From Citrus sinensis (lineage: Eukaryota > Streptophyta > Magnoliopsida > Sapindales > Rutaceae), in contig NC_068559.1 in the NCBI RefSeq assembly GCF_022201045.2, forward strand, positions 2,392,501 through 2,456,500: 64,000 bases of DNA. The letters run 5' to 3'. Both the position numbers and the translations under genes were made by a program. Numbering within the stretch: the stretch's first letter is position 1; the number at the start of each line of letters is the position of its first letter. This document shows, in pieces, positions 24,701-61,748 of this stretch. The notes beneath the pieces were generated by a model. It saw only the letters and a list, made by a program, of their open reading frames with translations. It did no database searches and was not told the origin of the DNA.

Positions 24701-25219
24701 CATTCTGAGTCCTAGATAATCTTTGTGCAGGTAAATGCAGCAGGGGATCTCTGTGCTATTTGCCAGGAAAAGATGCACGCTCCTATCCTGTTGCAATGTA
24801 AACACTTATTCTGTGAGGACTGTGTTTCTGAATGGTGAGTTTATGGTCTCATTTTCCTCATTTAACCTTTAGACTGTTATATTGTTAAATGTATAGTCCA
24901 AGATGCTTAAGAAGGAGTTAATAACTTGTTGCTTCCGGAGCTAATATTCTGGACTGCATAATGTTGATTTTCTTCAACCTCAATAAATGGATTTCAAGTT
25001 AGTCGGGCACAAAATGTTTCTATAAATTATGATAGGCAAGCAGATATCAACTGTATAGACTGTATTGCAAGGCTTCCTTCTTTGACTTGACCAATTCAAT
25101 GTCTGCATTTCAGGTTGGAGAGAGAAAGGACTTGCCCACTGTGCAGAGCTTTGGTTAAGCCTGCTGATCTGCGATCATTTGGGGATGGATCAACAAGCTT
25201 GCTCTTCCAGTTGTTCTAA
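21743..25219 (+). CDS. RNFT-like multi-pass membrane RING E3 ubiquitin ligase
   Basis: Eight exons, 21743-22250, 23152-23228, 23340-23508, 23936-24024, 24133-24297, 24428-24505, 24731-24834 and 25114-25219, give 431 residues. An acidic, Ser-rich disordered N-terminus (1-150) is followed by several hydrophobic segments (about 158-175, 178-190, 200-220, 232-250, 286-300, 318-335). A C-terminal C3HC4 RING begins LCAICQEK (first Cys about 370) and ends CPLCRALV. This matches RING finger and transmembrane-domain proteins (RNFT1/2-type), which in animals act in endoplasmic-reticulum ubiquitination; the plant role is inferred. The frame closes through every junction. Intron 1 is long (about 900 bases) and contains a coding-looking stretch noted in the findings. 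Confidence 0.93.
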
Positions 25220-28200
25220 AACCATGTTTTTGCTTCATTGTATATCTTTACACATGCAAATAGCTGATGCATATCATTTAAAACGTAATTCGTGGATTGG
25301 CTAGAGAGGTGGAAAAGAAAAATATTACCAGAATCAAGATCAGATTGGTAATGAGTTCATTCGTTACATATGTGAAGTTCGAGGATTGTTAAACAAAGGA
25401 GAGAGAATTCTAACCCCTATTCCATTCATACATTTAACTTTCTGATAAAAGAGGAAGCTTGTAGCTGTTTGCAACTTATTTTATGTTCATCTTTCGTTCA
25501 CACACTTAATTCAGAATGGGAATTGGGAAATCAACTGGAGATTATCTACATTACAGCCGTGGTCAGTTATAAATCAGGTTGGACTTAGTTTTATCTCTTG
25601 CATTCTCTCCTGAAAACTCCAAATTTTTTATAATGATGCCACCAAGTATTTAAAATTTTCAATGGGAGTAGACCCTCTGTACCTGACGGCGGTGGACGCA
25701 TGCACTATTCATCTTTTCTTCTAAATTTCTAATGGACTCCTTAAAAGTGCAGCGATCTGAATGAGGCCAGAATCTGCCTAGTTCATATGGGTTCATGACA
25801 CCAAACTTATGACTCCAAAAATGATCCTAGCACCTCTGAGAACTGGATCACGCTGGCCAATTTTGATTACGTAGATGCCGTAGTGCCCATTTATCATCAG
25901 ATTAATTAATAATAATCAGAATAAAATGGCAATTGTACTACATTGCCTGGACGGCCCTATCATTTCAAGCTCGCTAGTAAGATTGAGAACATTTACTGAC
26001 ACACTGACCATTAAGTGCGACCTTTTGCACAGTGCTTGAGTCTTAACAGGAAGTTTTGGGCCCACGGCTGTGTGGTGAAACTCAAAAACTCGTCAACATC
26101 ACATGATGGGATTTGTATACAGCATTGACCCTTCGATATTTGCATCATTATTGTTATCTCGGAGTATCTTTTCATGTTTCTTCTTTGCCAACATTGATAG
26201 TGGGATGATTCACATTCACCACAAAAATAACAAGACAAAAGGACAAACTATTTTATACTTGACCAAAGCTACAACTCACAACATATGACCACAGCACACT
26301 CAGGCCTCATCCCCTCCATTTGGGTTTTTTTCTGGTCAGGGATACTCGCAACCTCAACATATCTACCTCTTTTTGTTGTACAATTGTTGTATTCCTTGGC
26401 CATCAGATCATTTTTATGCACTCTAGATAAAAATGCTTATTACAGTATAGTTTAGGGGTCTGGAGATGGTTTTAATAATGTTCAGAGATCTAGAAAACAG
26501 TAAGATCATAAATTTACTACCATTAATATGTGGGGAGAAATCTATCTTCATTTCATCTCAAGATGAAATGATTTTATGTATGAATTGAGATTCTAAACAG
26601 AAACACTTATATAATCTAAAATCTATTGAGACTCTAGATAGATATTATATCCACTATTGTAAATTTAGAGATTTCAATAGAGTATAGGAAATTGTATAAA
26701 TATTCGTGCATTATACAAATATGCCTATCATTAACCTAAGATAAAAGATTTCAATTCAAATGTATATCTTGAGATGATACCTAGCCAAACTCTCCCACCT
26801 AATAATATCTTCCGTCTGAATTGGCCATGAGGGTGCCTTGGTCCAAAAAGAGGGGTAGTGGCTAGCTTTCGATTTACAGAATACGTAAAATAATGTTAAT
26901 GCTAGTAGTATTTCATTTTTCACTGTCTCCAACTTCCACTTATACTACACCATTCAAGTCATTTCATAAAGTCATACTAGAGTCAAGCTCAATAGAGTCA
27001 GCACACATCCTTCACTTTCATGGAGGATACATGTTTGTTGAGTTATTATATTTTAGCCTAAGAGTTTATTTAGTCCTTACATTTTGAAAAATATCTCAAA
27101 AAATCTTTATTATTAAATATATTACACTCATGCCCTTTCTTTTTCTTTACTTTTACAATAATATTCTTGGAACAATATTCTTGAGAATATTAATTAGTTT
27201 ATCTATAAAAAAATGTTATTTAATTAACAATTTAGCCTTAAAACTAAAAATAAATTTAATTTCTTTATTTTTCTTTTAGAATTAATTTAGTAAATTATTA
27301 TTTTTCACAAATAATTATTAGTAAGATTATAATTGCAACAGTATTAAACATTGCTATAAGTCATCCAATATTATTTATTTTAAATAATTAGAAGATTATT
27401 GTAAGGGTGTGAAAAGTATCAATTCATTCATACTAGTTATTAATTAACTTTTTTCATAAAATAATTGATTAATGTCTTTTCTAAAAGATTAAAAAAAAAA
27501 GAATGGTAAGAGTATCACATATTAAATAACAAAGGTGTCTTGAAATATTTTTTAAAATATAAAAACTAAACAAGTATTTAACCTAAAATATAGCAACTAT
27601 TCAAGCAAATACTCCTGTCACGAATTACATTTGGGCTTCACACAAGAGTCTATCCATCGAAAGGCACCTAAATCTCAGCGACTAGTTAGCAATGCGTGGT
27701 TTGGTTTGCAACTAGCGTTAGGATTGCCTGCTGACCTTAACATGACAAACAAAACTCCTTTCAAGTTGTGTCCAGATCATATGTGATATGTCCAGGATCC
27801 AATTGCATGATTTTCACGAGTTGATACTTTGCAGATTAAAGCTCATCCTCTCCCTGTAGCATTATAGCTACAGACAACTGGATGAGTGATGATACCAAAT
27901 GAGACTCAAGTGTGTGTGTGTGTGCACCACCTAAGTAGATAATAAGCTAACGTGTGGTCACCACAAAAGCACTTATCTCTATGAATTACCTGCACGATGC
28001 AGCTGAGCAGCGAGGAGTCAATAGGTAAAAGCACTTATTACCCTTTGAAATTCTCTGGCATTCTAAGAGCTTTATAGATATACGGGCTATCTTAAAAGAA
28101 GCTGCGTGCTGCTGCCACCGCTACTGCTGCTTATATATATGTGTGTACCTGCTTAACTGTTTTCCACCCACTTAAGTACTCCTTGGCTCGTTGTATCATC

Positions 28201-30559
28201 ATTCATTCATAATTCATAGCGATGAGGAATAATGTATGCAAGTACATCCATTTTTTTTCATGAATTTTTCTACATTAGGTTCAATTCTAGGCTCTCATGG
28301 TTCCTAAAAACTTGACAAATTATTGATGATTGCATTTTATGTTCACCTTGTGCGTGTGGTTTTGCTAAAGACTCGTTAACCCTTCGAAATTGAGTATTCT
28401 ATGTCAACAGAGTAATGTCTTAATCAATAGAAATAGCAAGTGGTTACCGGAAGCCTCGTCCTTGAGTACTTGTTCCGAAATTAATTAGCATGAAAATGTT
28501 CTAACATGTTGGTGCATCAGCTTCATCCATAAACAGTTTAGAGATTGGGACACGTATGACCTAACAATGTACACTAAACTTTAGACGTTACTTTTAACCT
28601 TACGAATCAAATTGCAAAAAACTTTAAGCAACAAGGAAAACGACAGCGGGTTAAGTATATTGAAAAAGAGAAAAAGTGAAATTTCTCGAATTTTCAAGAG
28701 GGTTGTCGAATCTACAACGTAAGGATCTCAGTGGAAAAATAGAATTTTGTAAAGGAAAAATTCAAGTTCAGAAGAGGGTTGTCAAATCCAAGAGAAGAGT
28801 CATTTTATGTTCATATAGCATCGTAATTTCTTCTCTTTTTACCGTATGCGTGTGAATATTATCATAATTAGATAAATATATGATGGCTAAGCTCCTATGA
28901 GACTTAACAAAAACAATTGTCCATGCATGTTCAAAAAACTTTAAAAGACGTGTTTTATCTTGTTCCATTGAAATTAAAAACTTGCCCTTATTGGATTGAT
29001 TATTTCGCTAATTTAATTTTAAATCTAAAAAAATCTCGTCGATTTATAACTTTTAGCCCAATTGTTGAATTTAAATCAAGCACAAATACCTAATCTAACG
29101 GAATCCATTAAACTCATTATTAACCCAAAAAAAAAAAAAAAAAAAACTAAAACCATATTTTAATTTTTCACCATTTGGGAATTTTGTTGCCTTTCTCCTA
29201 AAGGCTGAAGTCTTGGTTTCTAGCTAAAACTCAGATACGACAGATGAAATCATCGTTTATTTCTATACATTTTATTTTTTCTGGAGAATTTGATTTTTTT
29301 AGCTATGCCACTGTAAGTATGCACGTTACAAATAGTTTTTTTTAAAAAAAATTGTACTCATGGAACACCCAAAACTTTTCCCAAATGCACAGAACAATAA
29401 TTCTCGAAGGAAATGGAAATTTATTGACTAAAAGAATGATTAAGTAACACATATATGCTTGCCCTGTTTATTTGGTTATTTATAGTAATGGAAAGATCAC
29501 ATTTTAAAGTTAACTCAGACATGAAAAGAAAATTTTACTCTATTCAGGAAAAAGACTAAAAATACATGCCAAATATGACTTTAATTGAATTGACAAAAAT
29601 AAAAAATCTTGGTGCGACAACTTAAGTTACTAAACCCTAATTTGTCCTACATCAGAATCACCTGAAATATATTAGTATCATCAAGTACAACGTCAGAAAA
29701 TTATGAGATCGACCTTTGGTTCAAGAAAACACCTGATATATATTTATTAAATCAACAGCATCAAGAAAAGCAATTAAGTTTCTTAAGAACTTGCTTTATA
29801 ATATAATCTGATTGAGTTAATTACTTTAAGTTCCATAATGAACTAGTTTATTTTATGTGATAATGTGAATGAAAAGTAAATTGCGTATCAATCTGTCATT
29901 TGCATCTAAATCTATTAATAGTGACCCACATACATTTAAGATTAAAAATTACAAGTGCCAAATCAATTTAAAATCTAATGATGCGATCACATAATTAAAA
30001 CTAGGAATTTGTTAACTATATATATATATATAAAGAATCAATGCTAATAATTTGACAACAACAAAGTACAATATGCTTAGATTAATGACAATATTTCAAA
30101 CAGAAAGGGAATCAGATTTATCTCAAATGTCATTATTGTACTTCTTTATTTTCTATTTAATAACTAAAAGTATAAGAAGAAAATATTATCCCCAATTTGG
30201 TCATCATCTAGCAACATTTGAAAATTGAATATGGAAGTGTATATAAGCAGTGTTTGTGAAGTGTGAATCCATCATTCATGTCATGTTTATCAATTTATGG
30301 CAAAGGACTAGGCATTAATTATAGTGCAGTCTATTGCACAGTGGATTCAGTCATTCAATTTTCACAGCCACTCACAGTCACAGACTCACAGTGGTGCTAT
30401 CTTGGAAGTGGAAGTGTTTTCATATTTTCATGTGGCCACTGGCCAGAGTCAACTAGTTGGAATGCCTATATCTATTTATTTTTGCTGATTATTTATTATG
30501 AAAGTGAAATTAGTAACTCCTGCTCATTTATTCATTTACTTTTATTATGAATTTGCTTC
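25220..30559. other. Gene-poor AT-rich region
   Basis: About 5 kb with no supported gene. There is an imperfect 45-base hairpin near 27842-27886 (GTAGC/GCTAC inside CTCATCC/GGATGAG), a short (GT)n at 27910-27923 and an (AT)n tract near 30018-30032. A palindromic AT-rich patch at 26540-26790 could be a decayed MITE. Confidence 0.5.
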
Positions 30560-31884
30560 AACTCATTTTCATCTGGCTACAAATACAATACCCCCCCAAA
30601 GACAGAAAAGCAAAAGCTTGGGCTTGTGCTTCTGCTTCTGCTTCTTCTCTCTCTTCCATTGGATTTGTTAAGATCTCTTAGCTAGAGTCGCTTTCTTGTC
30701 TCTAACTCTCATGAAAGAAAATGACCCATCATCTTCTTTTGCAGCTACCTTCCCATATGAATTATGAAATCAAACTTCTTTATCTCCACCTTCCTTATTT
30801 TTTGCAACTTATTCTCTTTTCTTCTTTATTACAATTTCTTTTGTGTATTTATTTTCTACAAACATTACCTGAGCTTTCTCTTAAACTTTTCTCACACTTG
30901 GCCCTCTTTGTTTTGCTCAGTGAAGTGTGAGTTAATATAGTTAATAACATCACAGAAAGTTAGGGTTTCAAACTTCACGATCATTACTTGAGATTTAGGG
31001 TTTCAGTGTATGGAGAAAGCAAGGATGCCCAGTTAAGTTGAATCATGTTTACTTTCTTTAATTTGTTTTGTGTATCTTTCCAACTACTTTCTTGTATCAT
31101 TGATAATTAATTAAATCTTAATATGCTCTTTAATTTTATTTTCATATTTAATTATGTTTTCTGGAGGGAACTTAGCATATCATGTTCTTAGATGTATGCT
31201 TGACATTCTTCCTCAGAACATAACTTTTTGTTTGGATTCCAAGAATGAGAGAACAAGGATTAAGATTTAGGTGTCTGATTTTATGTAAATTAAATGTTTT
31301 TTTTCCTTTCTGAGGATGTTTTGATTGCAAGTATTATCAATGTTTCTTCGTTTCAGAAGATCAAGCAGAAAGAAAATCCCTGAAGCAATATTTGCTATTA
31401 AATTGTTAGTTTGTTGAGTGATTGCCTCTTTTTTTTTTTTTTTTCCTATCATAATATTACATCACAGTTTGGGTCCCTACCTTGTTATTTTCATACTGGG
31501 TTAATTATCATGTCTTGTACATAGTAATTGCCAATTTCAAGGCACATATAGCTAACATGTATAGATTAAGCAGAAACTGTTTCTTGTGTATGATTGAAGC
31601 TGCAGTCAGATTAACTCATTAGCTTTAGCTTGATCTCTTGATAGTACCTTTCTAATCCTGACTCCAATTTGGGCATTTTCAGCTACATTGAAATCTCTCC
31701 TAGCTAGCCTTGATTTTGTTGGCACAAAATTAGCCCTTGATATTGAAAGTTTCTTTTGCACACGCACACACACACACACACACACATATTGTTAGGAATT
31801 AATTGTAATAAGCTAAGCTGATTAATTAAGCTAGTAGTTGGATGATATACATGTGTGTGTGTGTGTGTGTGTGATGAAGAAATG
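30560..31884 (+). other. Probable 5' part of the miR319 primary transcript
   Basis: The sequence upstream of the hairpin has no supported protein frame but changes texture near 30575-30665. A TACAAATAC TATA-like stretch is followed by C- and CT-rich leader-like DNA (CTTCTGCTTCTGCTTCTTC), as seen at plant transcription starts. Microsatellites (CA)n at 31761-31786 and (TG)n at 31852-31873 follow. That this is the pri-miRNA leader is inference. Confidence 0.4.
31761..31873. repeat. Pair of complementary CA and TG microsatellites
   Basis: A (CA)n tract at 31761-31786 and a (TG)n tract at 31852-31873 lie 65 bases apart and are complementary. In RNA they could pair just upstream of the miR319 hairpin. 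Both should be length-variable between individuals. Confidence 0.9.
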
Positions 31885-32075
31885 GTGTGAGGGAGCTTCC
31901 TTCAGCCCACTCATGGATGGGAAAAAGGGGACGAACTAGCTGCCGACTCATTCATTCAAGCACTCAGTAGACGTGCTTTTTTTGTCGCTACTGTGATTGT
32001 GTGAATGATGCGGGAGATAATTTCCCTCCTCTCTTTTTCTGTGCTTGGACTGAAGGGAGCTCCTTCGTTCTATTC
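31885..32075 (+). ncRNA. MIR319: miR319 precursor hairpin (MIR319c-like)
   Basis: The 3' arm carries TTGGACTGAAGGGAGCTCCT at 32045-32064, the canonical mature miR319 form. The 5' arm carries the star region GGAGCTTCCTTCAGCCCACT at 31892-31911. The arms pair as GGAGCT/AGCTCC and CCTTCAG/CTGAAGG. A second paired block, near CTCATTCATTCA and TGTGAATGATG, extends toward the loop; this long two-duplex foldback of about 180-190 bases is typical of the MIR319/159 family, which is processed from the loop toward the base. miR319 cuts mRNAs of class II TCP factors and so controls leaf growth and flower development. The neighbour downstream is an ATG18 gene, as in Arabidopsis for MIR319C (from memory). 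Confidence 0.95.
32045..32064 (+). ncRNA. miR319: Mature miR319
   Basis: The 20-base sequence begins TTGGACTGAAGG, which distinguishes miR319 from miR159 (TTTGGATTGAAGG). The exact 5' and 3' ends and isoform need small-RNA reads. Confidence 0.93.
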
Positions 32076-33987
32076 CTTTCATTCATTAATTTAATTCTTA
32101 CATATTTATATGCAATTAATTTCTCTACTTTATTGTGATAATTAGCATTGCTCTCAAAGTTATTCCTGTTTCATCTTTGCCTAGGAGATGCACTTTCAAC
32201 TCTAACTAAGTGACGTCTTGGTCTAAAAGCCTAAACTGACTGGAAAAACCAAAATAAGGAGCATGTTCAGGTTACTTTCACTCATCAATCAATATTTGAG
32301 ATGATGAATGGTTATTGGTTATTATTAAAGAATAAGGAGCATTGAGTCTAGCCTGGAATCGAGACTCAGAGACTCTCAGTGGAGCTAGGATGATTGATCC
32401 ATTGAATGAAGGAAGGAGAGAAGAGTTTATCTTTTCCTTCGCCAAAAAGCCAGAAACCACAGTCGATTTTGCGGTGGGCTTCTCCACCAACCAATCAAAT
32501 TAATAACCTTTGCTTTTGAGTTTTGTCCGCTACGCAAACACAAACTTTCCTTTTGGTGGTTGTGATGAGCTCGATCCCTCTGCCACACTAGCTACTTGCA
32601 CGGTGCAATGCAATCAGATGAGGCAACTTTTACTGTTCATCCCAATTTTACATTTTAGTCCAAAGCTTACTGATCATGTTGTTGTATACTTGATTTGCAG
32701 CAGTTTCAAATACATTGCTTTGCTTTTGCTTTTGCTTTTATATATGTACAACATATAACTAGACAGTAATTTTTCTTGGGAGTAAAATAAACTAAAATCT
32801 AGGGTTTATGACTGGTGATTTGAAAAGTTGGTGAAAGCATATACTTTAATAACTAGTTATGTGAGTAACCAAGTACAGAAGAAAGCATAAAATAGACCCA
32901 TTTTGGAATTAAAAACCTCTAAATAATTAAAACTCTTTAATCTTTTCATTATTCAAGTGACAAAGTACAGTCGGATCCACTTCGCTTTTGGTCTACTCGC
33001 CATATTTTATTCAATTTTCGAGTACTTTGCTCAACTTGAATACTGCTTCGGTACTTGTTGCCCAACTTTGTGTTTTGTGATTGGGGCGTGTGTGTTATAC
33101 GTTGTGTTGTGTAATAATTTGCCAAATATGGATGAGCATACCGGTTTTAGAAATTAGTCTTTGAGTCAAGAAGCCCTTCCATCTCCATCTTCATCTTCAT
33201 CTATAGCCCTATGCCCTAGCGTCTGTTTCTGCCAATTCTATATGTTTTTTCCCCCCCTTTTTTTCTTTATTTAATTGGGTTTCGACGTTTGGTTTGGTCC
33301 ACCATAAAATCAGGAATCAAATCGTTCAGAATAATGAATTAAAATTGAAAAAAAGAAAAAGAAAAAGAAGAAGAAGAAGAGAGATTTGCATCAGCTGCCA
33401 AAACTATGCAAGTTGTGAGACATGATTGTCGGCAATATTTAATTCTTATTCTCGAGAAGAACCAAACATGAAACTATTAAAAAACAAACAATGATGTTTG
33501 ATCTAACGCTTGTTATTTGTGTGTGTGGGTAATGTAATTGTCTACGACTCACTTTATTTACGTATAATTTCATTGAAAATGGGGTCACCAAAAAATGGAT
33601 GATATCATCATGAGAACTATTGCTATTTCATGCGAGGGGGAAAGTTGTGCTTGCTTCTCTCTTTGATCACAAGTGTGTGCTCGCTTCCTTGTTCGCTATT
33701 ACGAAAATTTTTCTTTTTTTAAATTTTAACTCGGGAGTAAATAATAAACAGTAACGTACATTTAGATTAGTTCATCCGTTTCTGATCATAAACAGTTGGA
33801 TAACTATTGGAATCTATGATAAATCCAAAGAAATAATAATGCATGATTTGATTTTCTCATATGCTATTATTATTAAAAGATGGACGGTAAAAAGAGAGTC
33901 ATAATCACAAATATCTTTAAATATACATTCCATTCTCGGGCACATAATAAATTTGAGCTCTAAGAGAGGTAAACCTTATTATCATTA
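32076..33987. other. Intergenic region after MIR319
   Basis: The first few hundred bases are presumably the 3' part of the primary transcript. Frames of 60-80 codons at 32278-32490 (-) and 32510-32758 (+) show no domain and no splice context. A short GAAGAA-rich patch lies at 33357-33380. Confidence 0.5.
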
Positions 33988-34405
33988 GGGAAATTATCAT
34001 TTATATACTCTTAGTTTATTCCGTTATTAAAAATACTACAACACTTTGAGGGTGTATCAATCGTCCACCCTTAGTTGACAAAATGTATCAGCCGACCATC
34101 AAATCGTTAGTTGCCGTTTGAAAGTTAACGAAATTACAGTGAATTGACGATTTTACCCTTAAAAATTATCACTTGTATACCCTTAAATTCTTTTTTTTAT
34201 CACTTGTATACCCTTAAATTATCACTTGTATCATATGAAAAGACCAAATTATCCTTTTGACGTCATCATACTTAAACGGCAATTAACAATTTAGTGGTCA
34301 GCTGATACATTTTGTCAACTTAGAATAGACGATTGATACACCCTCAAAATGTTGTAGTATTTTTGATAATGGAATAAACTAAGAGTATATAAATAATAAT
34401 TTCGC
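33988..34405. mobile_element. MITE with very long terminal inverted repeats (Mutator-like)
   Basis: The outer about 140 bases on each side are inverted copies. The left starts GGGAAATTATCATTTATATA; the right ends TATAAATAATAATTTCGC. Both arms share ACTACAACA, GAGGGTGTATCAAT and TTGACAAAATGTATCAG. The centre has two to three direct copies of ATCACTTGTATACCCTTAAA. Long inverted ends with no coding capacity fit a Mutator-like MITE. Flanks are both TTATTAT-rich, so a 9-bp target duplication is possible but blurred by an (ATT)n run at 34406-34423. Confidence 0.85.
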
Positions 34406-35049
34406 TTATTATTATTATTATTATTGAGGGAGTACATCTTAATTCTTTTAAATTACCTCTGGTATCATAATAGAGCCTACAAAGTTAAAAGAGTTGCAAA
34501 TTTTCTAAATACATTGTACCCAACATGCATGGTACGTACGTGACGACAAAGAGCAATTATATTTGGCGACATAATTTTCTCTGTATCCAAGAAGCATCAT
34601 TGTGGTCATACAAAATTAAAGTTTCTATCTCTGTTTTGGCCAAATATCATTTTCCTGTCAGGTGAACAAAAAAAATCAACAAAATCTGATAAGCGAATTG
34701 TGCCAAATTCTGGGGGCACGGTACCCTTCGATTCCCATCGCCAGAGTCCAAGAGAAAACCCAACAAAATTGTAAAAGCATAAAATGAACGGTCTTCAAAT
34801 TTTTGTTTGGGTCCAGCCCAGTTCTACTTCTACTTCTACTCGTACGTATTAGCGTTGTTAGTGTATGTGACAATCATTAACCCACTCGATGCAGCTTAAG
34901 TTTTGAGCGGCAGACACGAGTCGTACGTCACAAGAAAATGAAAGATCGCCACGTGTACCAATTGATTTGTTGGGGAGGGAACAGAATAAATCCACGAATA
35001 ATTCAAAAAAAGAAAAAAAAAAAATTTGGGCTGTTTTGTTTCCTTTACG

Positions 35050-35081
<32 letters not shown>

Positions 35082-35514
35082 AGATCTCTCACAAAGCGAA
35101 AGAGAAAATTTGATCTGATGATCATTAATTTGATTTCTCATATCACAGCATCAAGGTTAGTGTCTCTATTCGATTTCTGCTTTCTGTACTCTTCGATTAA
35201 ATCACTTTATTTGTTTGGAATTATATAATATAGTAAGGAATCAGGAGGCCCGACTGATATTTTCACGATCGCAAATTTCCCGTTTCTGATCATTGATCAC
35301 TGGCTGCTGCCTGCTGGTGATTAGATGCATTAACTCTACATGCTATGAGAGATACAGAAGTTTGCAGAATCTGTGGGAATTAGCGTATTTGTATGACATT
35401 TCATAATATTGTGTGAATACAGGGGGTGCCACTGAAATTATTCACAATCGAGAAGATTTTCATATTTGATTGCTGCTGCTGCTGCTGCTGCTGCTGACCC
35501 TTTCTTCGTCCCAC
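34406..35514 (+). promoter_or_regulatory. Promoter, leader and 5' UTR intron of the ATG18 gene
   Basis: A G-box CACGTG lies at 34950-34955 and CGTACGTCAC nearby at 34922-34931. A (CT)n tract at 35050-35078 probably marks the leader. A likely 5' UTR intron runs from 35156 (GTTAGT donor after TCAAG) to 35422 (ATACAG acceptor). The leader ends in (CTG)8 at 35473-35496, just before the ATG at 35515. Confidence 0.6.
35473..35496 (+). repeat. (CTG)8 repeat in the ATG18 leader
   Basis: Eight CTG units follow TTG, in frame with the ATG 19 bases downstream and preceded by an in-frame TGA. The tract is probably polymorphic. Confidence 0.9.
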
Positions 35515-38620: not shown

Positions 38621-41219
38621 TTAAAGCCTAGGCCTGATACTTTTCATGTCATCAAAAGCAATCATCACCTTTCCAATTACTTTCCTATCTTCAATGGCAG
38701 AGAAGGCAAGGTTGGCCTGTAAAGGAAAATTGATCAAGCAAGTCAGATCTCGCATTATATGCAATTGAAAAATCCCCAATTTATAGGCGGAAAAATAAGA
38801 TGATTAATTCCCCCCCCCACAAAAAAAAAAGGTGCAACATTCTATTTGTCAAAAGCAACCTTCCATACCAACCAACAAAACTCAGTCAGAAATAGATCAA
38901 AATATAGAGTAGGAGATCAAAGGTGACCACCTTCCTTGCAAGATCAAAGAAAGGAAAGAATAACTACAGATGTACTCTCAGTGAGTTGCCAGGTTGTGTT
39001 GTCCAAAAGGACCAAAGCCCCACTTCGACCCTCGTGACCTGGTCTAAGTGGGAAGTGGTCCCAAGACTTCTCACAAATCTACAAATCTTACCAGCCAAGT
39101 TACCTTGTACCCACAATTTGATACTTTACAAAGTTTACAATGTTCGGTTAAAAAAAAATAAAATTTAAAAGAGCATTAGAGAGCTTCTCACCTCTGATGG
39201 ACTGTAAGTATGAGAAATATGGATGGTAATCAAGCCCTTTGCAGCCCATAAGAGTAACTCCCTAAGAGAATCTTCAAGCACATGAGGTCGATGTATTTTA
39301 TAGCTACCCCAGTAAAGTCCGTGTACTGTCCAGTTCTGTACAAGGGCATACATTTGAAGAACACGTAATTTGTTAGAGAGAAGCAGTAATTTGTAGGCTG
39401 CATAAACACTAAATTAGTATCATTATTCAGACAAAAGATGTCAGAAACAACAGTTTCTCATGTCAAAAAGAATTATTCATGTCATTATTACAAAAAATTA
39501 GCCCATCATATGGCTTCTCGGGTGTAAATTAGGCTAACTAAACAATCTCTTAATCCTTTTTTTTTCCTTTTCTTGGAGGAATGTAAATGAAGAAGCTTTT
39601 AAGTAATTTGTCAGCCAGTGATAGTGTAAAAATTAGACAGAAAAAAGACTATAGGAATTTCAAAAGAGTGAGTAGGAATCAAGTACCTTAACAAGAGCAA
39701 TATTAGCAGGGATTACTGGAATCTCCCCACTTGCAAAGCCAATGACTAAGATTTGAGCACCCCAGTTCAAAAGCTTCAAGGATTCTTTAGTAAGCTTGCC
39801 TCCAACAGGATCATACAGAACATCAACCCCTTTGAGTTTCCTTGCCTTGAGGAACTCTTTGACACTCGGAATGACACTCTCATTGCTCAAGTCAACTACA
39901 TGATCGACGCCCAATGACTTCAAAAATTTTATCTTTTCAGCACCCCTGATATATAATATTCAACACAAAGCTTATGTATAGGTATAAAACAATACCTAAG
40001 GAAATCAATCGACCAATAGAAAACTAAATATTTACAGCAAAAACAGGTATAAAAGGAATTGTTGAATAGGGAACAAAGTACCTAGCAACGGCAATGATAG
40101 TGGCTCCGCAAACCTTGCCAATTTGAACAGCGGCAACACCAACACCTCCAGCAGCACCAAGAACAAGCAAGACCTAGTACCCATCCATCATTAACAATTA
40201 TAAAGGGTTTGTTTGTAACTGCTGTGCCTCTACTTAATATCGCAGCTAATATTTACCAATCACCCACTCGCTTATACCCAACAACAAGAGATTTAAACAT
40301 ATCCCCGGTAACTTATATTTATAGGCAAGCAATTCTTACCTACCACAACATTCAATTTGGCTTCAATTTGCCAAATTGACAAATTTGGCAATTGGTGCCA
40401 ACTTTGTCATGCAATTGTAGTCAAAGTCTACATGCTAGCTCAACAATTGCATGCTTGAATTTGGATAGTGATTCTCCATCGACCAAGGATGAAGAAGAGA
40501 GGTTCTGACCCAAGAACCTTCACAGCATGCAAAATTCAAGCATGCAATTGTTGAGCTAGCATGTAGGCTTTGACTACAATTGCATGACAAAGTTGGCACC
40601 GATTGCCAAATTTGTCAATTTGGCAAATTGAATGTTGTGGTATTTCTTATTCATAGGAATAATGTTACCTGACCGGAGGACAATTGGGCCCGATGAACAA
40701 GAGCAACATGTGAGGTTCCAAATGCAACAGGAAGTGCAGCAGCAGCCAACAAATCACATCCCTTTGGCACTGGAAACCTTTGATAAAGCAAAACATATCA
40801 AATGAAATTGAATTAAAAAATCATCCCAATTCCAACTTAGATTATTAAACAACAAAAATAGTAAAAAGTACGAACAATTCTGACTGATCAGCGACGATGA
40901 ATTGGGCAAAGGAGCCAAGGGCAGCAAATCCACAAACAGTGTCACCCACTTTGAAATTTGAGACATTGGGGCCCACCGCATCAACAGTGCCCGAATAATC
41001 GGAGCCGGGGACGAAGGGCAATGGTGGTTTCTCTTGATATTTCCCCAATATCTGCAAGTAATTAGCGTAGTTCAAGCTGGTGGCTTTCACTCTGACTCTA
41101 ACTGCAGTTGAAGAATTCAATTGTGGAATTGGCTCAGTTTTACTCAACAGAATCGGCGATTTTTCATCGTGAATTGAGACCGTTGGATCGCCCAGTTTCC
41201 TGCACACCAGTGCCTCCAT
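38621..41219 (-). CDS. Quinone oxidoreductase-like protein (MDR family, QOR2-like)
   Basis: Six exons, 41219-40876, 40777-40669, 40173-40082, 39945-39687, 39335-39192 and 38716-38621, give 347 residues. It has a GroES-like N-terminal domain (NYANYLQILGKYQ, PFVPGSDYSG) and a Rossmann fold with the AAGGVG nucleotide motif (around residue 158). It lacks the zinc ligands of alcohol dehydrogenase, as NADPH:quinone reductases do. It closely matches what I recall of Arabidopsis At3g56460. The exon 1 donor must be GTTCGT to keep frame, a weak site; all other sites are standard. An in-frame ATG at 41294 would add 25 residues. The second intron contains a foldback element. Substrate is unknown; quinones or reactive carbonyls are plausible. 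Confidence 0.94.
40341..40642. mobile_element. Intronic foldback element (near-perfect long inverted repeat)
   Basis: The left arm 40341-40462 and right arm 40531-40642 are inverted copies. They differ by an 11-base insertion in the left arm and two or three base changes. The loop is about 68 bases. Ends are TACCACAACATTCAATTTG and its complement. Both flanks contain TTCTTA within a few bases, a possible target duplication. It lies wholly inside intron 2 of the oxidoreductase gene, so that pre-mRNA carries it. It is either a foldback MITE or a young hairpin locus. Confidence 0.9.
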
Positions 41220-48454: not shown

Positions 48455-51400
48455 TCAAGGATGATAAGCCAACTGAGGGAAGCCAGAATCCTGTAATGAT
48501 TGGTTCTGATGATTATCTGTTGGAGCTCCAATTGTCAACTGTCCCTGTCCAGAAGTTGCACCCTTGCCGTTGTCATACAAATTTGAATTTGGTGGCCAAA
48601 TCATGCTTCCACCAGGAGTGCTTTCCCAGTAGTGCTGAAGCTGTTGCTGCTGCCGCCAGGGTTGAGCTTGAGATGACAATTCGGCTGCAGTTAAAGATCT
48701 ACACTGCTGCTGGAGCCAATCATCAGTGCTAGGCTGTGGCCCCAACTCTGTTGGCATGAACCAATTTGAATATTGTCCTCCATTGATGGCACTACCACCA
48801 TGGTGCGTGCCCACTGCATCAGAACCTAGCTCTGTTGGCTTGAACCAATGCGAAAATGGTCCTCCATTTATGCTGTTGCCAAGGCTTGTGCCTGCTGCAT
48901 TAGACCCCAACACTGTTGGCTTAAGCCAATCTGGAACTTGACCTCCTGGCGGTGTGCTGCCTTCATGGCTTGGGCCTGCCTTATCAGCTGTTGGCTGCAT
49001 TTGATAATTTAAATCCAACCCCTGGATGGAGCTGAAGGGTTGAGCGCTACTCGACCCCAATAGTGTTGGCCTAATCCAATTTGGAACTTGACCTCCTGGC
49101 AGCATTCTACCTCCATGGCTTGAGACTGCCTTGTCAGCTGTTGGTTGGATTTGATGCATTCCCCCAAGATAATTTGAATCCAATCCCTCAAAGGAGCCGA
49201 ATGGTTGAGTGCTACTTGACTCCAACAATGTTGGCTTAAGCCAATTTGGAACTTGACCTCCTGGCAGTATACTGCCACTATGGCTTGGGCCTGCCTGATC
49301 AGCCGTCCCTTGGATTTGCTGCACTCCATCAAGAGCATCTGAACCTAACCCCCGAAACAAACCGAAGGATTGAGTGCTACGTGACCCCAACTCTGTTGGC
49401 TTAAGCCAATTTGGAACTTGACCTCCTGGCAGTAAACTGTCTACATGCCCTTGCCCTTCCTGATCAGCTGTTGGTTGGATTTGATGCACTCCACCAAGAT
49501 AATTTGAATCTAACCCCTCAAAGGAGCCAAAGGGTTGAGTGCTACTTGACCCCAACACTATCGGCCTAAGCCAATTTGGAACTTGACCTGATGGCAGCAT
49601 ACTGCCTTGAAAGCTTGGGCCTGCCTTGTCAGCTGCAGATTGGATTTGATGCACTGCACCAACAGAATTTGAATCTAACCCCTGAAAGGAGCCAAAGGGT
49701 TGAGAGCTACTTGACCCTTCTTCAATGTTCAGCTTCAACCAATCAACCTGTCCTCCCTGCTCTATACCCCATCGGTAGCTTGGGCCTTCCCTATCTTGGA
49801 TAGCTTGAAGTTGATGTACTCCACCATGATTGAGTGAATCCACCTCAGGCATGAATCCAATTGTTTGACTACTGTTTGACCCTCCAGGCATAGCTAGCCA
49901 CATGGAAGATGATGATGGACAACTATATCCTGCAGATACAGAATCTGGCACTTCAGACCCTGAAGAAACAACCTTACTTGTCTGGTCTGGACTCTTAATA
50001 GAATCTAGCATAAACTTTACAAAACTGAAACTGTTTAGGTTGCCGTCTCTGATCCATGCTGCAGGAATATCTAGCTCTTCATATCCAGATAAGGAGATGG
50101 GGTTTTTAAAAGCAGTAAGTGTATCAAAACCACCGGTTGTCGTCTGAACCATTTTTCCTTGTACCTTACCAAGATTTTCATTTGTCCTAATACCCAGAGT
50201 GATTGCTTCACTTGTGGGCCCAAATTTATTTATGGTGTCAACAACAGACGTCTTCTGCCCACCTAAATTGCCATTCCAAATATCCAATTCTCTACTAGCA
50301 GAATTCCCAAGGAGTTTCACTGATGGAGCAACAGTGATACTCTTTCGTGCCGATCCTGCACCAGTGAATGTATTCTTCGGAGCTTGAACCATTTTCCCGC
50401 GCATCTCATCAAGGGCTTTCATGGTGGTACTAGCCTGAGCAATTCCTCCTCTTAAGACATCATATATATCTATGGTGTCAACTATAGGTGCTTTTCCTCC
50501 ATTCAAAGCACTATGATTGTCCATTTCCCTTTCTGAAGATCTTTGACAACCAGCAGAATTTCCCGGGAACTTCAAAGAGGGAGTACTGGAGATATTCTCA
50601 AGTGCAGATCCAACACCAGATATAAAAGTATTTGGAGCTTGAAGATGACAGTTGAAAGTTGCAGTCTGGAGTTTCGAAGTTTCCGCTATGGTGCTTCTTA
50701 ACTTCCTCTGGGCAACCATTTGAGCTGTTGGCCCCAAATTACTAGCAAACTGCATCAAGCTCTTAGCAAATCCAATTTTGTTCTGCTTACCCTACACAGA
50801 GAATAACCAACAAGCAGAAGAAAGATAAATTCAAAGATTTAACATAAACCAAACAATTAGGAAGCAGCATAGCAGATACTCTCCTCTTATTCTTCATGTT
50901 TCTATTTAAGGTTGAAGGAAAGTTAGATAATAGTAGGTTGTACAAAATTTTTTAACAAACTTGAATCAAAGACGCAAATAGTAGCAAATACAAATACGCA
51001 GCCATGCTCATGTTCTCCTACCGGCTCAAATTTTTTTGAGCTGTTATAAACTTGTGTCACTGACAATTCATTCTCAGAGAGGAATGAAGTACAAGGAATA
51101 TAGCTCTGACGGGGTTGTACTTCAAAATTTTCTAATCCTCTTTCACCTCTACAGCCTGTTCACAGGAAAGACAGAAGAAGTAATTGGACAATTGAAATCA
51201 TACTATATACTTGCGCAAAATATTCAAGGTAGTTGACAAAATATATATTGTGAACAATCAACCATTACTAGTACTTCATTGAACAAGTGATAGTACCAGT
51301 TGTCTTGTTGCAGGAGTGAGAATTCAGAGGTCCAGATATGGCCTTGTTCCTCCTACGACCTCTCATGGAACATGCAGCTTCAAAATTCTCGGGATCATTT

Positions 51401-57199: not shown

Positions 57200-60100
57200 A
57201 TCAGGTCGGCCATGTTACTATTTTCGCCCCGGCATGGATCACCTTAGCCAAATGGTATGAGCAGAACACAAGGATAAATATGAGCCAACCAGAGACGAGT
57301 ACCGGTCAGTGTAATATACCGACCAGAGTCATATACCGAGCCGATACCAATCCCCAAAAAGCGGGAACATGATCCCACATAATCACGGTAGTTGCACTTT
57401 TCTCAGAACCGTTGCGGGAGACGCGAGATCACACGTTTGCCCACAACGTAGCAGTTAAAGTCCTATGAGGGGCTGTTACTACCCGAAAAAGGGGGGATGA
57501 AGAATAAATGGAAACGTGGGACAGCGGCTATAAAAGAAGAAGAAATCGATGAAGAAGGACACAAAAAAACCTGAGAGGGGGAAAACGCTGCCAAATTACA
57601 ACCATGCCATTTTCTTACAAACTTCGAATAAATTAGAAACCATTCTTCAATCCAAATTGAACTGTTTTCCCGTAAACACCTTGTACTAACTTAGGCATCG
57701 GAGGGTTTACGTCGGCAAAACCACCGGCGTCTCTTATCCGTTTTTGGTGAACGCAGGTCTAGTAAGAGAAGGGAGGGTGATTCCAACCCCAGTGATTCGA
57801 GTAACAGTTGATAACTTAAACGTTGGTGAAAGAATCTGGTCGGTCAAAGGGCGAGCAGATTTCAGCATTAACATTTTAGCGCCGTCTGTGGGGAGCTGGA
57901 TAAAAAGCTACCACCGAATTAGTAGTTACCGGAGAAACAACGAACGGTTAGACATGGATGTGCCAAGGAAGGACGCTTTGAGGGAGGATAACGAAGCTCG
58001 GGAGACAATCACTCTTCGGGAAATTGCAAATGAAGCCCGGGAGAGGATGATGCAAGATCGATTGGAGAAACAAATGGAGACTCTCGCAACCATACTGTAA
58101 AAGCTGAGGGATGAGCGGAGAAGGGATTGTGAAACCCCCGTGGGGAGAGATGATGTTGGAGCAGAACCCAGCCTCTAGAGGCGTAGAGTCGAGGAAACCC
58201 TCCGTCGGCAGACCAACCTAACGGGGTGCATCCCCACGGAAGCACTGGTCGGGTTCCAGGAGAACGAGTAGATGAAGGGAGGGACCAACCTCTCCCCGAA
58301 CGGGTACTGAAAGTCAATGGCCGAGGGGCCAGTGTTGACGAATGAGAGCTCAGACAACGGTTGCACAATGCCGAGCTGGAACGAGACTAGATAGCTGCAC
58401 GTGATCCTGATCGTGCCGTAGAATTGGAGGGGGAGGTGCGCAGATTGGCGCAGGTGATGGAGGAGATACAGGGCAAGAGAAAGCCCCCGAGCTGAAGGAT
58501 AATGTTGGATGAAGAATCTCCGTTATCAACCGAGATCATGGGTACAGTAATCCCAAGAGATTTCTGCTTCCCCGACCTCAAATACTCTGGTCGAAGTGAC
58601 CCGCTGGTGCATATTGAGCGTTTCAACGACATGACGGGGGTGCAAGAGTTGACACCAGCTCAAAGGTGCAGGGTGTTCCCGTTGACACTCGAGGGGCGAG
58701 CCCGAGAATGGTACCGCAAGCTGCCCCGAGGAGTTATAAAAGGGTACGAGCAGATGTGCTAAGAGTTGGCCGAACAGTTCCGAGGAGCAGTAGCCCCAGA
58801 GGACGACATGATGGAACTGATGGGGATGAAACAGGAGGAGCATGAGTCCCTTCGGGATTTTGTAAAGCGATATCATCGGGCCGTGCTAGATTTGGGAGCT
58901 TTTAATCACCCACAGGCGTTGAGGGGATTAAAAGAAGGTGTAAGAATCGGCTGATTGTGGTATAACTTAAAAAGCCCCCCAGTGCAAAATTATTCACATG
59001 GAAGAGCTGAGGCGAAAAGAACGGAGAACCCCGAACAGGAGCAGATCGGGAAAGCGAGCTAGGGAATCCTCAGTTATAGGCGGAGTATCAGCTCGGTCCC
59101 GCCCTTACCCCATAGCTCAGAGACCACAACAGTTCCAACACAGCCGGGCCCAACCTCCGCGCACCCCGTTCCCGGAGCGGCAACGAGAATTCAGGCAGAT
59201 GGCTACCCACCCTTATCACAACACTCCTAGAGTGTTACATGCAACTGGTTCCAGGGCTGGACGACCAGATCAGCTAGCGACTATACCAGCCCGAGATGAC
59301 ATTCATGATAGCCGAGTAGTTCAGCTGGTAGACCAGAGCTTAGCATATAGACAGTAAACTCCATTAAAGATCTCCATTGAGGAATTGTATGAGAGGATTG
59401 AGGGACGAGGCCTGTTGTACCCTCCAGTGCCTATAACAAAATTGGCTCACCAACGGGATAAGAGCAGATTCTGTAAATTTCATGACACTCACGGTCACAC
59501 TATCAGCCAATGTCGTGACCTGAAGATTCAGGTGGAAGATTTAGTGAGGAACCGATACTTGGATGAGTATGTAGATAGAGTGTCCCCTGTCATTGAATCA
59601 CAGTACACGTGAGATGAAGGAGTTGAGAGGGGTCTGGAACGTGGATAGCCGACCATCCGTGTAATAGCAGGAGGGCCAACATTGACCGGGGATTCGAACA
59701 GGGCACGGAAGAACTATGGGAGATACGCCATGACTGGTAAAGAGGTGCTTCTAAATTTGCCAGCAGCTAAGAGGGCAAAAGTGCGGCAAGTTCCCATTAT
59801 GTGGACGGAGGATGACGAAGAGGGTATTTTGTATCCTCATGAGGATGCACTGGTGATTAAAGCATTGGTAGCTTGTACAGAATTGCGGCGAATACTGATG
59901 GACACGGGCAGCTCAGTCGATATTCTGTTTAAGTCGGCCCTAGATGATATGGGGATTTCAAACTTAAAGCTGGAGCGGAGAGCAGAAGCAGCCCGAGCAG
60001 AGTGATTAAGATCGGGCCAAGATTGGTCGGGACAGTAAAAGGCGAGCTGGTAAAGTGCCTACAGTCCCATGCATATATATTCGCCTGGTCTCACGAGGAC

Positions 60101-61567
60101 ATGTCAGGAATTGATCGCAGGGTAGCTTGCCACAAGTTGGCAATCAAGAAGGGGGTGAGGCCGGTAAGACAGAAAATGAGATGCTTTAACCAGAAAAGGT
60201 ATGAGGCCATAAACACCGAGGTGGAGAAGCTGTTGAAAGCAGGATTTATAAGGGAAGCCAAGTATCCGGAATGGATTTCCAATGTAGTACTGGTAAAAAA
60301 GGCCAACGGGAAGTGGAGAATGTGTGTGGACTTCACGGACCTCAATAAGACATGCCCGAAGGACAGCTTCCCCCTACCCAAAATAGATCAGCTGGTGGAC
60401 TCAACAGCAGGTCACAGTCTGCTCATTTTCATGGATGCCTTTTCTGGATACAACCAGATACCCATGGACGAGCAGGATGAGGAAACACCACCTTTATAAC
60501 TAACATGAGTTTGTTTTGCTACAGGATAATGCCTTTCGGCTTAAAAAATGCAGGAGCCACCTATCAAAGATTGGTAAACAAGATCTTCAAACCGTTGATT
60601 GGACACACTATAGAGGTGTATGTGGATGATATGATTACAAAGTCCAAAGAGCCAAGGGATCATGTGAAGCATCTAGAAGAGACCTTTGAATTGCTGAGGA
60701 AGTACGAAATGAAGCTGAACCCAGACAAATGTGCATTCGGGGTCAGCTCAGGCAAGTTCTTGGGATTCCTGGTAAGCCACCAAGGGATCGAGGCCAACCC
60801 GAAAAAAATACGGGCGGTGACAGAAATGAGGTCCCCACAGACAGTTAAGGAGGTGCAAAGCCTTATAGGGAAATTGGCAGCATTGAACCGATTCATCTCG
60901 CGGGTCACAGATAAATGCCAACCTTTCTTCCAAACCATAAAGAAAGGGAGAAAGATAGAGTGGACATTAGAGTGCGAGGAAGCATTTGGGCAGCTGAAGA
61001 AATAACTGACCCGCGCCCCGTTACTATCAACTCCGAGAGAGGGTAACCAGCTGTTTCTATACTTGGCAATCTCTAAATGGGCTACCAGCTCGGTATTAGT
61101 CAGGGAAGAAGAATGAAAGCAACACCCGGTATACTACACAAGCAAGGCTCTGGTAGACGCAGAAACCAGATATCTATTGATGGAGAGGTGGGCACTGGCT
61201 CTGATAACGGCAGCACGAAAACTCCGACCATATTTTCAAGCCCACCAGATTGTTGTGATGACTGACCAGCCCCTTTGGCAAATACTTCAAAAATCAGATG
61301 CATCTGGTCGGTTAGTAAAATGGTCCGTGGAGTTAAGTGAATTTGACCTCTCCTATAGGCCCCGAGGAGCAATCAAAACCCAAGTTCTGGCAGAATTTAT
61401 GGTTGACCAAGCTGAGCCAGGGGAAGAAATTCGGGAGGAGCAACTAATAGAGCAGGAGAAACCAAAGAGGGTGTGGCTGGTAATGGTTGACGGATCATGT
61501 AGTGAGCAAGGATCCGGAACAGGAGTTGTAATACGAAGTCCAAAAGAAACCGAAATAACGTATACAG
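57200..61567 (+). mobile_element. Ty3/gypsy LTR retrotransposon, Tat/Retand-like, broken fossil
   Basis: Parts in order: a 5' LTR (about 57200-57885, start uncertain) with a CTATAAAAG TATA box near 57527; a primer-binding region with GCGCCGTCTGTGGGGA at about 57881-57896; gag (about 57950-59610) with a CX2-type nucleic-acid motif near its end; protease with DTGSSVD (about 59890-59930); reverse transcriptase (about 60140-60950) with MDAFSGYNQI and YVDDM; RNase H (about 61170-61400); and the start of a second RNase H-like domain, a Tat-clade trait. The coding part is broken in several places (of the order of half a dozen or more), so it is a fossil. The integrase and 3' LTR are not visible because a hAT element interrupts it. 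Age cannot be set without the second LTR. Confidence 0.9.
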
Positions 61568-61580
61568 TAGGGGTGGGCAC

Positions 61581-61748
61581 CAACCCGCCCAACCCGTGAA
61601 CCCGACCCAACCCGTATGAATTTTTGCGGGTTGGGTTGGGTTGATAAAATTTACGGGTCGGGTTGGGTTGTTAAATTTTCAACCCGCACTGTTTGCGGGT
61701 TGGGTCGGGTTGTAAATTTTTAACCCAGCCCGACCCGTCAACCCGTAT
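61581..61748. repeat. Subterminal AACCCG/CGGGTT array of the hAT element
   Basis: At least six AACCCG and four CGGGTT copies occur in 168 bases, in both orientations. This forms imperfect hairpins. Subterminal clusters of short motifs are where hAT transposases such as Ac bind. That these are binding sites is inferred. Confidence 0.75.

Follow-up and report, generated by a model that had tools for sequence, protein, structure and literature searches.

A MIR319 gene in the window

Positions 31881 to 32076 of the window (the whole 64,000-nucleotide stretch of Citrus sinensis DNA that was analyzed) most probably hold a functional-looking angiosperm MIR319 gene on the + strand. Judging from the sequence, we put the probability of this reading as a whole at about 96%. 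MIR319 is an ancient plant microRNA gene that keeps TCP-family regulators of leaf growth in check. The locus is an ordinary, textbook MIR319 gene of an already well-described kind; it can be found by a standard Rfam scan, and it would regulate, in a conserved role, the leaf growth that TCP proteins control.

The Rfam MIR159/319 model (RF00638) matches 31881 to 32076 on the + strand over its full length (model positions 1 to 196 of 196), with 152.3 bits against a gathering threshold of 74 and an E value of 5.5e-34. The minus strand of the hairpin also exceeds the threshold (104.4 bits), because a near-perfect, near-palindromic stem resembles its own reverse complement. This second match is 48 bits weaker than that of the + strand, and we took it for the mirror image of the stem and rejected an antisense precursor. 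The same 31881-to-32076 region folds into one long unbranched stem of 74 pairs at -84.2 kcal/mol; a stem of about 85 bp had been predicted. A 211-nt piece, 31875 to 32085, reaches -87.7 kcal/mol, with a z score of -7.12 relative to dinucleotide shuffles, 0 of 200 of which folded as low. Apart from the length of the stem, the original prediction of a miR319 precursor with pairing arms is borne out by the full-length family match, the strand, the single stem, and the exact mature sequence that it contains.

Fold alone would be insufficient to pick out the gene, since the twelve most stable stretches in a scan of the window (2606 stretches of 196 nt, step 49) all lie elsewhere. Ten of these stretches are near 40.4 and 61.5 kb, and seven of the twelve fold below the value of the full hairpin. 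The identification of this candidate as MIR319 is based on family sequence and conservation.

Mature sequence, star, and loop-proximal duplex

Mature miR319, TTGGACTGAAGGGAGCTCCTT, is present on the 3' arm as an exact 21-mer at 32045 to 32065 (+), within one base of the site originally given. Its first 19 letters match the window twice when up to 3 mismatches are allowed, where 0.02 matches are expected: once as the exact mature sequence and once, with 3 mismatches, at the star on the minus strand. In the MFE fold, 19 of the 21 mature bases are paired, with 32045 and 32049 unpaired, and the partner of the mature sequence with 2-nt 3' overhangs is a predicted star on the 5' arm at 31892 to 31912 (+). 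A star had been predicted at 31891 to 31911; it is present, shifted by one base under the duplex rule. Star and mature are 132 nt apart (31912 to 32045) within one stem. The miR319c of Arabidopsis ends in CTCCTT. The window mature also has this ending and differs there from Arabidopsis miR319a and miR319b, which end in CTCCCT (PMC2945783). The core of the window star is shared by a soybean product, gma-MIR319i-p5 (PMC4877674).

In its architecture, the hairpin shares the features described for type 1 stem-loops (Li et al. 2011, PMC3118147): a long unbranched stem, a mature sequence on the 3' arm, and a loop-proximal duplex that is kept in both sequence and pairing. Its star-to-mature distance compares with the more than 60 nt given there for type 1. 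From the type 1 members of the MIR319/MIR159 family (RF00638), as that source describes them, the window hairpin differs in nothing of substance. The MIR319 genes of Arabidopsis likewise have a 3'-arm mature, a.2-type product (miR319b.2; PMC2945783), and TCP targets (PMC6195573).

The loop-proximal duplex corresponds to the second paired block of the original prediction. It is formed by 32000 to 32020 (15 of 21 bases paired) with 31937 to 31955. With boundaries set here, the conserved block on the 5' arm spans 31934 to 31959 (+; ACR5 of Li et al. 2011) and that on the 3' arm spans 32000 to 32020 (+; ACR3, the miR319.2-type product).

Paralogues and the pattern of conservation

A blast search of the genome (299.7 Mb, 11 contigs) with the hairpin found two other places only, C7:21.40 Mb (81%) and C3:1.24 Mb (71%), indicating that the hairpin is not a repeat family. 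A genome search with RF00638, in which 34 candidates were scored, gave at least 21 hits on the two strands together at E 0.001; among the matches listed, ten hits over threshold fall at eight distinct places, and three further places lie below it. Exact copies of the 19-mer core of the mature sequence occur at six places in the genome. The whole 21-mer is also exact in the C7 paralogue and in no other among the loci examined.

In comparison with the two closest copies, the hairpin is best kept in four parts, namely, the mature, the star, and the two loop-proximal blocks. Identity to the C7 paralogue is 21/21 in the mature, 18/21 in the star, 24/26 in ACR5, and 20/21 in ACR3, whereas the spacers keep 14/21 and 19/24, the loop 21/40, and the stretches just outside 6/10 and 4/11. 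The corresponding values for C3:1.24 Mb are 19/21, 17/21, 23/26, and 19/21 in the four blocks, against 12/21 and 13/24 in the spacers, 19/40 in the loop, and 3/10 and 1/11 just outside. Conservation of this kind has been described as the "bi-duplex" pattern for type 1 stem-loops (PMC3118147). Both copies have a T in the star opposite mature position 5, whereas the window copy has a C (31906, facing 32049). A blastn comparison of the window with the C7 and C3:1.24 Mb loci (4.5 kb each) found no similarity beyond 31877 to 32065, and hence no conserved promoter blocks outside the hairpin. In five more distant paralogues that were aligned, the loop-proximal blocks keep 10 to 19 of 26 and 11 to 14 of 21 letters, which is not clearly above the remainder.

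The locus is redundant with the C7 copy at least, where the mature 21-mer is identical, and this leaves some room for a decayed or unexpressed MIR319 duplicate that has kept its hairpin and lost transcription or correct dicing. Some family members with degenerate loop-proximal regions are suspected pseudogenes (PMC3118147). Here, however, the four conserved blocks are intact and, relative to the two closest copies, better kept than the spacers, loop, and flanks, as expected under selection, since a dead copy would drift evenly. We regard decay as very improbable and favor a functional-looking MIR319 gene.

Pairing was also compared across the family. When the window structure is applied to eight hairpins, 77.0% of cells are paired; shuffles give 67.9% (sd 1.2) and slid partners 40 to 49%. 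Part of this excess is built in, because the structure was taken from the window itself. Changes on both sides are seen in 38 of the 74 stem pairs across the eight oriented hairpins. In the pair-count test, 22 of 500 shuffles attained the observed value on one of the five measures, that of further pair types. The pair counts used eight of the ten extracted hairpins, leaving out L007, whose hairpin is identical to that of L006, and L015, which is very like L014.

On C3, a pair of MIR159/319-like hairpins about 8 kb apart is found twice, at C3:48.410/48.418 Mb and C3:49.754/49.763 Mb, a distance of 1.34 Mb. The hairpins at C3:48.418 and 49.763 Mb are identical, and the surrounding 3.2-kb loci, compared ungapped, differ at 874 letters. 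The doubled pair reflects either a segmental duplication or an assembly duplication.

TCP genes as predicted targets

The mRNAs on which miR319 acts are those of TCP genes (PMC6195573), and target prediction in trifoliate orange has likewise assigned a TCP to miR319 (PMC2996959). Among 21 TCP loci of the present genome, three carry a miR319 site, with penalties of 2.5, 3.0, and 3.0, in frame and coding for RGTLQS or RGPLQS; none of the remaining 18 has a site at a penalty of 6 or less. The three site-bearing loci, C1:16559308, C2:7189643, and C2:28473605, look CIN-type when their TCP domains are inspected by eye. In a control run with minus-strand loci not turned, an average of 0.02 loci had a site at a penalty of 5.5 or less for shuffled microRNAs. 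Across the genome, the TCP-site pattern has nine exact places, namely, six microRNA loci with that core and the three TCP genes; one mismatch gives ten places, and a reversed control pattern gave five. The proposal that this microRNA regulates TCP genes is supported as predicted targeting, through the matching in-frame sites that TCP genes carry in this genome.

These sites also bear on whether the locus could be a MIR159 gene with GAMYB-type mRNAs as its targets. MIR159 is the name of the Rfam model, which includes both families, but the mature sequence has the letters of miR319 and the TCP sites match, and we give a MIR159 gene practically no weight. The letters of miR159 are absent from the hairpin and, among the loci examined, are found only at C3:42.28 Mb.

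As a MIR319 gene, the locus would give rise to an RNA polymerase II transcript containing the hairpin at 31881 to 32076. MIR319 precursors are diced from loop to base by four DCL1 cuts (PMC6195573), and the window hairpin would be expected to follow its family in this, in four steps. The loop-proximal duplex (within 31934 to 31959, and 32000 to 32020) would be released before the spacer duplex, and miR319/miR319* would come last. In AGO1, miR319 would then guide cleavage of the CIN-type TCP mRNAs at the sites described above, and this cleavage would restrain TCP control of leaf growth and differentiation.

The loop-proximal duplex and the miR4414 name

The block at 32000 to 32020 is letter-for-letter the longan small RNA dlo-miR26. 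This RNA came from longan sequencing, where it had a count of 14, and was one of 29 potentially novel miRNAs, placed on the poplar genome, and called orthologous to mtr-miR4414b by its authors (PMC3623967). Further small RNAs fall in the same kind of hairpin: dlo-miR9, from the longan table in PMC3623967, is exact inside the C3:1.24 Mb MIR319 copy, and mtr-miR4414a (PMC3160423) is exact inside a MIR319-like copy at C2:24.85 Mb. Castor rco-miR4414* (PMC3722108) is similar and has no exact occurrence in the window. By these sequence matches, MIR319-type hairpins are the source of miR4414 and of longan miR9 and miR26. They illustrate how parts of a single type of precursor have come to be named as different microRNAs.

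The Rfam model for MIR4414 (RF03440) covers just the inner part of the window hairpin. Its match to this inner hairpin (31927 to 32030) is weak, at 32.8 bits against a curated threshold of 100, and membership of the window hairpin in MIR4414 was rejected. A better match is found at the MIR319-like C2:24.85 Mb copy (C2:24851653-24851846), where 83.8 bits are still below 100. Rfam MIR4414 seems to describe the part of MIR319/159-type precursors next to the loop, and its name looks redundant. The overlap in naming is not new in print, since a table in PMC5048172 already assigns miR4414b products to miR319 precursors.

In Arabidopsis, miR319b.2 had 491 reads versus 30 for miR319b (PMC2945783), and ACR3 products are reported to predominate in some tissues (PMC3118147). 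The complement of 32000 to 32020 has ten places in the genome at up to 3 mismatches, against two for a reversed control pattern; three of the ten are MIR319 hairpins, the window's own included. We consider it unlikely that the 32000-to-32020 product is a separately selected regulatory small RNA, which would make the locus a two-output microRNA gene. If it were, the miR4414 name would denote a second function of MIR319 genes.

Genomic surroundings of the hairpin

The hairpin lies in an intergenic interval at 25220 to 35469, bounded by the stop of a RING-domain gene on the left and by a PROPPIN (ATG18-like) frame that opens at 35470 on the right. The RING exon of the left neighbor (24731 to 24835) was identified with Pfam; the next exon, at 25115 to 25216, was set by eye, has no Pfam match, and is followed by the stop at 25217 to 25219. 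Two stop-to-stop frames of at least 90 aa lie wholly within the gap, at 30260 to 30550 and 34881 to 35228. Pfam gives no match at E 0.01 for either one, and a protein gene among frames of this length in the gap was rejected on this basis. Short frames upstream of the hairpin were considered as a miPEP, and none is supported by anything tested. A TATA-like stretch at 30240 is a tentative lead on the transcript.

The expectation that protein-based annotation would leave 25 to 35 kb empty is probably right. The "gene desert" proposed for this region is correct in that no protein gene is recognized in the gap, and is overstated in that the gap is just about 10 kb between two genes, a size that in our judgment is not unusual for a plant with a genome of 299.7 Mb. 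The locus is a reminder that stretches empty of annotated proteins may contain regulators of development. Although the same gap holds inverted repeats and a MITE-like element, the full-length family match refutes a chance or transposon-derived inverted repeat as the origin of the hairpin, leaving that origin next to no probability beside a MIR319 gene.

Just upstream of the hairpin, at 31750 to 31882, a (CA)n run faces a (TG)n run, and the two could pair. On either strand, these runs give an Rfam mir-3149 match that falls below threshold and is probably meaningless. The MITE-like element, at 33978 to 34415, about 1.9 kb downstream of the hairpin, has 142-nt inverted arms that are 88% complementary. 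At least 40 near-full-length copies, including itself, are found in the genome (707 candidates), the others at 90 to 93% identity.

In the right part of the window, an inverted repeat at 40362 to 40632 has 101-nt arms that are 98% complementary and 69 nt apart, and it is among the window's most stable folds; it may be a MITE of recent origin or a hairpin that yields small RNAs. On the minus strand, a 778-aa stop-to-stop frame at 48455 to 50791 holds a 165-bp tandem repeat of about four copies. Frames at 57690 to 61600 (+) resemble, by eye, a Ty3/gypsy-type retrotransposon polyprotein, with a reverse-transcriptase-like stretch, likewise recognized by eye, at 59948 to 61005 (+).
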